In this document: positions 18,401 through 24,400 of the stretch, piece after piece
How positions within the stretch are numbered: position 1 is the first letter of the stretch
How the letters are laid out: the number at the start of each line of letters is the position of its first letter
NCBI RefSeq assembly: GCF_964340395.1
Contig: NC_135571.1
Location: 14,240,546 to 14,304,545, forward strand
DNA length: 64,000 bases
Origin: Glandiceps talaboti
Taxonomy: Eukaryota > Hemichordata > Enteropneusta > Spengelidae
Reading direction: 5' to 3'
The notes under the pieces: model-generated
What the model was told of the DNA's origin: nothing
Database searches by the model: none
The model's input: only the letters and a program-made list of their open reading frames with translations
Program-made: the position numbers and the translations under genes

Positions 18401-21400
18401 AAATATTGATTTTCTGTTGAATAAATTATTCAAATATTACATCTCCATGTTTTCAACTTTATGTTCTTCATACCACAGGGTCCAAAAGGAATAAATAAAA
18501 AAAATTCCTGATTTTCCAGATTTCTAATATTGTTTTCTTATTTTTCTCTGTATTTCAAGTAAAGTTTAAAATATTAAAATCAATAGTATCATTTCCTCTC
18601 ACTGTCTTTTTCGATTTCCTATTGTTATCACTGTCTTATCAGAGTCTATCAACTTTGCATTAATGAGTTAGGTTTCGCACAGTCCTGGAAAACCCTGGAA
18701 TGTCAAACCCTCCATGGAAACCCTGGAAAACTGCTCCCTACCCCTGGAAACCCCTAGAAAATGAGCACAATTGATTGACATTTCTGTCTGTGCTCTAACC
18801 ACCCATTCATATGATTCAGAACACTACTAAATGTGAAATGATGAAACAATTTTCAAAGTATTTTTGCCAAGCTAGTAAATCAAAATTCTCGCTAGCCCAG
18901 ACAGTCAAACGATCATTCCATGATATACTTTGCTCACAGAATGTATGTATACAGTTCACTGGCGCCACCATGTTTGTTTTGATCTTGCATGCTTTGTATA
19001 TTGTGTAAATTCATATTTTAGTACCTAAAAAAAAATGCACTAGTGAGTGAACATGATAGTCAAGATTTTGATGGAGGTAAAGTCTAGTATTGACTCATAG
19101 GACTAAAATAATAAGACAGACATTAAGAGAAATATATAGACAAACAAATTAATATTTTCCCTATATTATAATATAAACCCCTGGAAACCCTGGAATTTTT
19201 TTTATTCTTAGTGTACGAACCCTGTTAGTACACATCTAATCCTAGAACAAACTCCTTTGTCCACTAATGTACAAACACTCTAATTGGGGAATTCACTGAT
19301 ATCTAATCTAGTCAATTAGATTCCTCATATCAAATAGATTTTCCTCCTGCACAAACACCCATATTTGGGAAGTTATAATATTTCAAGTCATGGTTTAACA
19401 ATTAGGAGGGCTTATATGAAATTGAAGGATATTATAATAGTAACAATTTCAGATTCAAAAAAGTATTCATGAACTGAAAAATACAGTATTTTGTGATAAG
19501 AAATATATATATTGAGTATTATACAAACTCCTAGTATTTCAGATGGTGTATTAGTTTTTAACATATTTCTATCAAAATTTATTTTCAGACAAACTCAGGA
19601 GTTATATGAAGCCAACTGGGATAGAAGATTTCGTTTTTTATGTTGTTGTGCAGGTGTTGGTGATGCACAACAGGTAGGTTTGTTTTTTATGCTAATGATG
19701 TAAAAGTTGTTGAAAATAACAAGTGCTGTCCATAAAAATAGTTAATTCACAGACATTTAGAGTTAATATACTCTATAACTAGGTGGACTTGAAGTAAACA
19801 AAGTTTAGACTCTTCAACTCCCAAACCACACAGGATTGGTTAAAATGACTTTATTCTGCCGAATCCCTTAGCATAACAAATATGACTAAGGGACGATTGC
19901 AGTGTCACACAAGCTCAACCGTAACAGACATTGTTCATTTAGGTCAAACCACGTACCTCCCCCTAAACAAACGAAGTTTGCTTATTGAGCTTGTGTTACA
20001 TTGTGCGATCGTCCCTAAAATAAGAAACTCAACTCTGTTTCCTTTCACATAACCTAATTGCACCATTCCAATCATGTGGAATTAATAAATGCAACATGTA
20101 AGGAATGTGTACATGTCATATGTTGATTTCACAGACATATTAATAATTTACATGTCATATGTTGATTTCACCGACATATTGATCATTTTGTAAATCTTGT
20201 GTCTTTATTTCTGTTGGCAGAATTCATTTGCAGAAGTAGCCAAACTTTTTTCAGAGTTTTTCCATGAATTAGATGTAGTTCCATCCGACATAATAGCTGG
20301 ATTTATGTTACTCAGAGAAGAGCAAAAGAGACGACGGAAACTGATTGTGGCAAACCAAGGCAACAACATCTATGAGTTTCTATCAGGAGTTCCTATCACA
20401 CCTCAAACCCAACATTTGAACCTCACAGACCCAGTAAGTTATGAGTTTCTATCAGGAGTTCCTATCACACCTCAAACCCAACATTTGAACCTCACAGACC
20501 CAGTAAGTTATGAGTTTCTATCAGGAGTTTCTATCACATCTCAAACCCAACATTTGAACCTCACAGACCCAGTAAGTTATGAGTTTCTATCAGGAGTTCC
20601 TATCACACCTCAAACCCAACATTTGAACCTCACAGACCCAGTAAGTTATGAGTTTCTATCAGGAGTTTCTATCACATCTCAAACCCAACATTTGAACCTC
20701 ACAGACCCAGTAAGTTATGAGTTTCTATCAGGAGTTCCTATCACACCTCAGACCCAACATTTGAACCTCACAGACCCAGTAAGTTATGAGTTTCTATCAG
20801 GAGTTCCTATCACACCTCAAACCCAACATTTGAACCTCACAGACCCAGTAAGTTATGAGTTTCTATCAGGAGTTTCTATCACATCTCAAACCCAACATTT
20901 GAACCTCACAGACCCAGTAAGTTATGAGTTTCTATCAGGAGTTCCTATAACACCTCAAACCCAAAATTTGAACCTCACAGACCCAGTAAGTTATGAGTTT
21001 CTATCAGGAGTTCCTATCACACCTCAAACCCAACATTTGAACCTCACAGACCCAGTAAGTTATGAGTTTCTATCAGGAGTTCCTATCACACCTCAGACCC
21101 AACATTTGAACCTTACAGACCCAGTAAGTTATGAGTTTCTATCAGGAGTTCCTATAACACCTCAAACCCAACATTTGAACCTCACAGACCCAGTAAGTTA
21201 TGAGTTTCTATCAGGAGTTTCTATCACACCTCAGACCCACCATTTGAACCTCACAGATCCAGTAAGTTATGAGTTTCTATCAGGAGTTCCTATCACACCT
21301 CAGACCCAACATTTGAACCTCACAGACCCAGTAAGTTATGAGTTTCTATCAGGAGTTTCTATCACACCTCAGACCCACCATTTGAACCCCACAGACCCAG

Positions 21401-24400
21401 TAAGTTATGAGTTTCTATCAGGAGTTTCTATCACACCTCAGACTCACCATTTGAACCTCACAGACCCAGTAAGTTATGAGTTTCTATCAGGAGTTTCTAT
21501 CACACCTCAGACTCACCATTTGAACCTCACAGACCCAGTAAGTTATGAGTTTCTATCAGGAGTTTCTATCACACCTCAGACTCACCATTTGAACCTCACA
21601 GACCCAGTAAGTTATGAGTTTCTATCAGGAGTTTCTATCACACCTCAGACTCACCATTTGAACCTCACAGACCCAGTAAGTTATGAGTTTCTATCAGGAG
21701 TTTCTATCACACCTCAGACTCACCATTTGAACCTCACAGACCCAGTAAGTTATGAGTTTCTATCAGGAGTTTCTATCACACCTCAGACTCACCATTTGAA
21801 CCTCACAGACCCAGTAAGTTATGAGTTTCTATCAGGAGTTCCTATCACATCTCAGACCCAACATTTGAACCTCACAGACCCAGTAAGTTATGAATAGAGT
21901 CAAAGAAAGCTGTACATCATAAATAATAACTTTATATATGGCAACTGCTTCTATTACCTATCATGTAGTTCTTTTCTACAACATGTATCACTCCTACCCC
22001 GACCCCCCCCCCCCCCCACCCACCCTCAGATTGGGTGACACTGCATGCACTCTATGCAAATGAGGTTGCCCACACAACAGTACATCTAAATATAGTAATC
22101 TGTTGTTGGTTTTAGCACTGACTGTCAAATTTTGTCAGACATTTCTGGCACAAAGTCATGATTTATTCTTTTCTAAATTTCCTGATATGAAATTTCTTGA
22201 ATGAAAATAGTGTTCGCGGAGACAAAAATAGTATAGCCTTGGTATTGGGTATAATGCAAGGATACTGCCAACTGTCAGGATTGATATTGGGGTATATACC
22301 TTCAATGCAAGGACACTGCCAACTGTCGGGCTTTGCAATTGGTTCTTGCATTTACTAATTACATAAATTTGTTTTGTTTACAGGTCACTAAAGCAGAATT
22401 TAAAAGTGTTCTTTATTATTTCAAGTTTGCCATCGCAGCATATGGTTGGCCTCTTTACATGATTATGAACAAGACAACAGGATTATGCAAATTAGCTAGA
22501 CATTGTAGGTAAGTCAGATGGAATGGTGCTATTTGTCAGTTAATTTCTCATGTAAGACATTTACCCTCAATATCATCCCCCTCCCCACCCACCCACACTA
22601 ATCTTGGTCTATATCCTTGTCTAGTGCTGAGTTCATACAGGGATAAGGTTAATCTCCCATACTTACGCAATCCTAGAAACGCATGTTTACACCTTTCATA
22701 TACATTTTTATATTATCGGCAAAGTATCTCAATATAATCGATATTTCATTATATTCTGAAACATCTCAGGGAAAGTCTTGTCTGTTTAACCAATACATAG
22801 AATCCTGTAGTCTCCATATGTTTAACCTTATTGTAAATATATATTATCCACTAAATGTAACTTTTTCTCTGTTTTTTTGTTATTTTTGTTTCTGTGCAGA
22901 TGTTGCTGTTGTAATCTAAAAAATTCAGCTGAAGTGGTTGATCAAGATAATTGTTGTCAGTGCAACTTTACGGCGTTGAAACGACAATTAGGACTTCCAG
23001 AATCTGATATCGTCTATGCAACTTTTCATTCAGCGGTTAGTAAACACTCAATGTATAATAAATCTACCCTAGCACACTGCATGCCTGAACCTAATTTAAC
23101 CATGGAAAGAACGCATGGAACAGAATTAGTGGGAAAAGTTAGTAATGAAGGCACGGAAAATCTTGGAATGGAAGATGATATGGAAAATACACTGGGAATG
23201 CAGTGGTATTCCCAAGGATTAGAGGAACATTTTTTTGATAAATTTTCTTCAGATTTACAGGAAGTAGGTTCTTCTTCCTCATCACAACATTCCAGGGAAG
23301 AGATTCCAAGTCATCCAGAGAGGTTGCTAGGAGATGAAGCAGGTATCCATGACAATAGTGATGATGGTGATGGTAGTCAAGGAGAAGAAACCATGGTAAC
23401 AGACATTGATTTGACATATGTAAAGAGATGCTGCTGATAATCAAGCTGCTGTGAAATATTTTCATCTTTTCTCGTTTCTTCATTTCACTTCTTCTCTTTG
23501 TTCACCTTGCCTATAGTGTACAGACCTTTAATAATATTGTCCAAGTTTTAAACAATACATTCATTGAAACATAAACTGTTTATTTTTCTTCAAAAAGTTC
23601 AAGAGTAGTCTAAGAATATTTATTAACTGCTTTTGTTAAAGTGACACAAACTGAGTTTATAAACTTTTCAATTATGTGAAAATATTTACTAAAAACTTGG
23701 ATTAAATTATTCTAGTATAATGTTAATGTGGATGCATGCCATCTATGACATCACAATTTGTATTCTGGCATTGTTAGAACTGTTGATTGCATGGTAGGGA
23801 GTTTCTGTACATTTTTTGATACATATATTATGTATGATTATGTCATCGGATCGTTTGTAAGTTATATTTTTATACCAAGTTTGAGTTCAGTCAATTCCAA
23901 GTGATGGTTAAGTATACATCAGTAAGTAGAATATTGTGAGTACCTTTTAATTCCAAGTGATGGTTAAGTATACATCAGTAAGTAGAATACTTTTAATATG
24001 CTGAAAAAATGACATCCCCAAAACATATCAGCTCAGTTTGTGTACCTTTAAATTATTGTCCCATTGTTTGATTAGCTTGAAATATTTGTAGATTACTTGA
24101 TGTCACTGACTGACCAAATTAGCAATAAATGTTTTCAATGAATGTTATGTTTAACTTGGTTTAAATTGCAAATACTTTCTGATACAATAGACCCATGCTA
24201 AGATATCATATCACTGTAAGTCACATTTCAAACAAACATTACAGTGTCCAGTGTGTATATAACTATTCATGTACCGGTATATAGTCCATGTGAAGCCCCG
24301 AGCTTTGCCTAACACATCAACAAAATGTTAGCCCAAAGTGATCGATGAGGGCGCACAGTACAGGGCTAGGGATACTGGGATACTAGTATACAAGTACAAT

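Follow-up and report, generated by a model that had tools for sequence, protein, structure and literature searches.

In coding minisatellites of the MUC1 type, the repeat units lie inside one exon and all of them are translated. Here we describe a 69-bp tandem array from the hemichordate Glandiceps talaboti in which the end of an exon of a diacylglycerol lipase (DAGL) alpha-like gene is repeated together with its 5' splice site. The array lies in a stretch of 64,000 nucleotides (contig NC_135571.1 of assembly GCF_964340395.1, positions 14,240,546 to 14,304,545 of the forward strand), which we call the window and whose own numbering is used throughout. Like a MUC1 variable-number tandem repeat (VNTR), the DAGL array is an open repeat with a period divisible by three; unlike it, each DAGL unit ends in a donor, so that units 2-22 are probably spliced out.

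The published system that comes closest is the VNTR in intron 18 of human ABCA7. It is built of a 25-bp unit that starts with the donor GT, with 23.7 copies in the reference and alleles of about 12 to 427 copies, and an isoform that retains one unit is present at 2 ± 1%, unaffected by array length (PMC5954066). As in the DAGL array, the repeat sets in where the exon ends, and its units contain that exon's 5' splice site. Retention of an ABCA7 unit, which has the donor at its beginning, shifts the frame, whereas the 69-bp DAGL unit takes in 63 coding bases and leaves the frame intact. Intron gain by tandem duplication has been reported for 24-bp exonic repeats of fission yeast with introns across several copies and for an RdRp gene of potato. 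In these cases exon sequence is likewise duplicated with splice signals, and fission yeast splices several copies out as an intron (PMC4974935). There a new intron arises from the duplicate, whereas in DAGL an existing intron appears to be lengthened, with a donor per unit and a single acceptor. Tandem copies of one donor also compete in unc-73(az100), an engineered case in C. elegans with only two copies, where the pair of donors repeated 18 nt further downstream is chosen less often than the original upstream pair (PMC8865678).

The DAGL array starts at the exon end, carries a donor in 22/22 units and has the genuine donor in unit 1, which in this one assembly gives it the structure of an ABCA7-type VNTR. 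As judged from its sequence, it differs from the ABCA7 kind by including exon sequence, by keeping the frame and by having siblings in the same gene. A published account of the Glandiceps array was not found in the openly licensed literature. Through ABCA7, donor-bearing intronic repeats have a link to human disease, and a natural contest of 22 identical in-frame donors offers a setting for how position alone governs donor choice.

Anatomy of the array and its host gene

The splice-site-bearing exon-end repeat in this DAGL intron is real and unusual. Tandem Repeats Finder (TRF) describes the sequence at 20371-21893 as an array of period 69 with 22.1 copies, 97% matches and zero indels, and inspection of the units agrees with TRF and with the first-pass annotation of this DNA in finding 22 copies of 63 exonic bases plus GTAAGT. 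Unit 1 is the genuine exon end (20371-20433). The open frame is kept in 22/22 units, CCA-GTAAGT is present in just as many, and a single open frame runs from 20194 across exon and array to a stop just past unit 22, where TATGA occurs once more before the frame stop (TATGAATAG). Since all units are open and the acceptor of the next exon (22384) is phase 0 and in frame with the array donors, splicing in frame to 22384 is possible from each of the 22 identical donors, as the annotation had held. The first donor would give an exon of 213 nt and the last an exon of 1662 nt, leaving an intron of 501 nt.

The variants among the units are ordered in space, as had also been noted: units 1-8 are a mixture of two interspersed types, and units 16-21 are identical, which supports the proposal of a recent expansion. 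Identical units are also hard to assemble, and the number of units might differ from that given here or the array might even be a construct of the assembler. We consider such an artefact highly improbable, given that the remaining units bear different variant combinations, that the array sits in a 15.96-Mb contig and that arrays of a comparable kind abound in the genome samples; a wrong copy number, moreover, would not abolish the array. A search of the 590-Mb assembly did not find the unit elsewhere, the matches, at least 22, all falling within the array. Likewise, no Rfam family matched over 19500-22800.

When 14 exons of the host gene are joined at consensus sites, they encode an open protein of 914 residues. 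The top database matches of this spliced model are DAGL-alpha-like proteins, the best being the NCBI model "diacylglycerol lipase-alpha-like [Glandiceps talaboti]" (P0001), with 99% identity over 82% of the query. Pfam Lipase_3 matches residues 363-498 of the model (42.6 bits vs a cut-off of 22), and the exon at 31848 contains GHSLGAG, which we take to be the lipase motif. By its class-3 lipase domain and full-length similarity, the host gene is diacylglycerol lipase alpha-like, and the spliced model, the Lipase_3 match and the homologues all agree with the earlier assignment of the repeated exon to DAGL. The earlier placement of the insert close to where the lipase domain begins is imprecise, as the insertion would follow model residue 258, about 105 residues before the Lipase_3 match. 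A related protein from the hemichordate Ptychodera flava (P0002) has no insert at the array junction, reading DP before the junction and VTKEEFKD after it (DPVTKEEFKDVLYYF). The features of the array and of its siblings in the same gene are collected in Table 1.

Table 1. Positions, in the window, of the array, its flanking exons and the sibling junction duplications of the DAGL gene.
Feature	Position	Strand	Evidence
DAGL exon; its last 63 bases are array unit 1	20221..20433	+	spliced model, homologous proteins
22 tandem 69-bp units, each of 63 exon-end bases + GTAAGT, all open	20371..21888	+	
First (canonical) 5' splice site GTAAGT, phase 0	20434..20439	+	U1 pairing -5.6 kcal/mol
Units 2-22, part of the intron when splicing takes the first donor	20440..21888	+	
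TATGA at the 3' array end, matching the word with which unit 1 begins; either microhomology or a partial unit	21889..21893	+	
Next DAGL exon, phase-0 acceptor before 22384	22384..22508	+	spliced model; relative P0002
Acceptor-side sibling: a single upstream copy (45 bp, open and in frame) of the 3' splice site before 10956 and the exon start	10881..10974	+	
Sibling at donor 28670: one extra copy of exon end and donor at an offset of 62 bp; the copied donor is preceded by a stop	28625..28755	+	
Sibling at donor 31990: exon end and donor in three copies (offsets 49 and 52 bp); the first donor is directly followed by a stop	31963..32116	+	
Sibling at donor 37997: one extra copy of exon end and donor at an offset of 105 bp; the copied donor is preceded by a stop	37962..38156	+	

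A mainly intronic minisatellite or a coding ladder

We consider it likely, with a probability of about 70%, that the array is a slippage-born, mainly intronic minisatellite in which the first donor is dominant and forms with 23 additional residues are minor at most. Its seed would be a tandem duplication across the exon-intron junction, for which we infer slippage between a TATGA in the exon (20371) and another in the intron (now at 21889), originally 69 bases apart, although the TATGA at the 3' end of the array could equally be a partial 23rd copy. On the slippage view the unit length, and hence its divisibility by three, would be a matter of chance. Growth inside the intron would then have carried the exon end and its donor into 21 further copies. 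The spliceosome would mostly take the donor at 20433, yielding the 213-nt exon and the conserved protein, while copies 2-22 would leave with the intron; leakage to donors further down would lengthen the protein by 23 residues per unit with the frame intact. This reading is supported by the intact donors of all 22 units with TATGA at both ends of the array, by the lack of an insert in P0002, by near-neutral variation among the units, by the lack of the repeat in the listed proteins, by sibling duplications in which stops block read-through, by the abundance of arrays in this genome and by the ABCA7 and unc-73 precedents described above.

The openness of the array over 1.5 kb was considered as evidence of coding and rejected. 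The frame is open because the seed was coding, its length is divisible by three and only two intronic codons (GTA AGT) were added. Under a neutral model with 10 changes, the probability of no stop is 0.70 and that of no change in GTAAGT is 0.40. The units differ at 10 variable sites, five of them synonymous and five non-synonymous (P/S twice, Q/H, H/N and L/P). With seven transitions and three transversions, 3.1 synonymous changes are expected, so that the substitution check proposed in the first-pass annotation gives no significant synonymous excess (P(5 or more) = 0.16). As far as these counts go, the ten sites behave close to neutrally; they do not require coding and are compatible with weak constraint.

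The repeat was also sought in proteins, with the full-insert isoform as a query. This search scored 318 matches, and none of the best 120, which were listed, contains the repeat. Among the 208 proteins listed as matches in the searches with the spliced model and with the full-insert isoform, no protein has two FLSG motifs, and DPVSY is found in P0001 only.

These data bear on the idea of a true coding minisatellite, in which several of the 22 donors would be used appreciably and an in-frame ladder of 0 to 483 extra residues would be set partly by copy number. Such a ladder is favoured by the 22 open units with intact donors, by the period divisible by three, by the slight if non-significant synonymous excess and by the existence of the one-unit-retained isoform of ABCA7, at about 2% (PMC5954066). 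We nevertheless regard it as unlikely, since open units are what descent would predict, half of the variable sites alter the protein (one of them from Leu to Pro), the repeat is in none of the 120 proteins listed and the relative P0002 has no insert at the junction. A wider form of the idea, in which exon ends with donors repeatedly seed arrays and 22 competing donors here produce nested DAGL isoforms in 23-residue steps, distributed according to an individual's copy number, seems to us unlikely as well. The first-pass annotation had proposed 22 nested isoforms encoded at this locus. Its anatomy of 22 identical in-frame donors stands, but the isoforms gained no positive support: the repeat is in none of the 120 proteins listed, and the four sibling donor duplications could not be used without a stop. 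In our reading of the sequence, the array looks mostly silent and intronic rather than like a designed protein-length switch.

Sibling duplications and the choice of donor

Three other donors of the DAGL gene are duplicated downstream together with exon sequence, and one acceptor is duplicated upstream (Table 1). A comparable case was found in a CCT exon, which we take to be CCT gamma-like (locus L035, 8150-8392, gene strand). Exon end and donor together form an 85-bp array of 2.8 copies there; each copy closes with GGTAAGT or GGTGAGT, and a stop precedes the second donor. In all four donor siblings, three from DAGL and one from CCT, the upstream donor must be the productive one because read-through meets a stop. 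An in-frame leak, if tolerated, may explain why the 69-bp array grew to 22 units, compared with two to three copies at the sibling donors that meet stops.

Within DAGL, local copies spanning the junction occur at 4/14 donor positions (13 true donors plus 39227, which is an open-frame end only) and at 1/15 acceptor positions (one of them a base off and one from a tentative exon). Random intron points fall inside such a first unit in 4.1% of cases (n = 3000), giving a probability of 0.002 for four or more of 14 in a test that was devised after the cases had been seen. Counted by exon, junction copies are present in 5/15 DAGL exons and in 1/46 CCT exons from eight loci (Fisher P = 0.0026), under slightly different scoring rules and with profile-match ends serving as the CCT exon ends. 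Together with the six exons described below, the CCT control covered 52 of 57 matches. The eight CCT loci are poor in arrays, at 0-4% compared with 24% in the DAGL window, and this difference in array density may explain much of the gap between DAGL and CCT. In an array-rich CCT gene on the same contig as DAGL, junction copies were found in none of six exons. Intronic arrays in that gene (L039, 910-1928; L040, 454-698; gene strand) reach to within about 10-15 bases of the edges of three exons and include no exon sequence.

Arrays with a period of 15 or more cover 24% of the window. In 190 kb sampled elsewhere in the genome, as 19 stretches of 10 kb (L009-L027) with minisatellite shares of 0.4% to 70% each, they cover 20%. 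GTRAGT is present in only one of 96 arrays (37 from the window and 59 from the 190 kb), namely the DAGL array, where 5.2 would be expected, and AGGTRAG is present in two of the 96 vs 0.7 expected. Array units therefore show no general enrichment of GTRAGT donors, which counts against a general donor-seeding mechanism. The sibling cases suggest that tandem duplication across a junction has been overlooked as an origin of donor-bearing intronic repeats. A 40-bp array of 21.9 copies at 15999-16850 has the donor-like CAGGTGAG in most of its units, and no exon was found at this array.

On the analysis of splicing given here, we expect the first donor to be dominant, with at most a few per cent of in-frame forms carrying 23 additional residues. 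Several observations weigh against a mainly intronic array governed by its first donor. The donor at 20433 pairs weakly with U1, at -5.6 kcal/mol, and is among the weaker of the 13 donors of the gene, which span -4.5 to -13.0 kcal/mol. When two donors are equal, some minigene work points to a preference for the intron-proximal one. The array donor lies in a 30-bp arc that none of the 10 changes among the units touches (P = 0.034, post hoc), a hint of constraint. Seven residues of P0001 are apparently derived from the array, although P0001 contains no repeat. In ABCA7, skipping of exon 19 rises with array length and was put at 12% for cell lines and at up to 45% for one region of the brain (PMC5954066). 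Dominance of the first donor does not imply that the array has no effect on splicing, because exon skipping in ABCA7 rose with array length.

The minigene preference also speaks for a further alternative, in which the last, intron-proximal donors win and the usual protein contains most or all of the 483-residue insert. The donors are all identical, and use of the last one would leave the short intron of 501 nt. We consider this outcome extremely improbable, as it would place a 483-residue repeat where P0002 has none and would require the 1662-nt exon, and as the proximal copy cannot be productive at the three DAGL sibling donors or in the CCT case.

The extra donors might instead be kept as helpers, acting together as clustered U1 sites that support a weak donor or shield the intron but are not themselves cut. 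The weakness of the donor at 20433 and the invariant arc around the array donor fit this idea. In the same direction, the donor core of the sibling copies differs at 0/51 aligned positions, compared with 25/293 elsewhere (P = 0.035), and the comparison reaches P = 0.005 once the columns of the 69-bp array are added. These two figures and that for the arc are all post hoc, however, and one CCT copy is gapped in the core, with 6/9 core positions counted, and would show a difference if left ungapped. Donor-bearing arrays are, moreover, not favoured in general, given the single GTRAGT array among 96. We therefore hold the retention of helper donors to be very unlikely.

The NCBI gene model and further features of the gene

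P0001 has 807 residues, equal to the canonical splice from the same start, and differs from it only at residues 147-153, where SYDFYQD stands for TKAEFKS. There is no single-intron parse of SYDFYQD, and there are 20 equivalent two-intron parses, which take GTTTCT at 20445 as donor and 22407 as acceptor and place a 12-nt exon from one unit between weak sites. P0001 was considered as proof that the array is used for coding and was rejected on these grounds, as it needs a 12-nt exon between weak sites and has 20 equivalent parses. We read the seven odd residues as an annotation error caused by the array. Donor-bearing arrays can thus corrupt automatic gene models, as these apparent array residues illustrate.

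P0001 also lacks the exons at 9247 and 10956. It ends at 39224, yet the frame at 42709-42976 matches the C-terminus of P0002 (... ETEC), so the NCBI model looks cut short at its 3' end.

The open frame runs past the donor at 23035 for about 400 nt (23036-23434), into a stretch rich in Ser and acidic residues, and then meets a stop. P0002 has a 37-residue insert, also rich in Ser and acidic residues, at exactly the 23035 junction (HSA before it, VSETPFF after it). The sequence at 23036-23434 may be an alternative exon extension.

Two further repeats were observed in the window. The sequence at 33642-33687 is a copy, 85% alike, of the stretch immediately upstream of the acceptor at 33768. The sequences at 34370-34643 and 49872-50141 have similar translations and match at 76% over 46 bases, and they are probably copies of a dispersed repeat.

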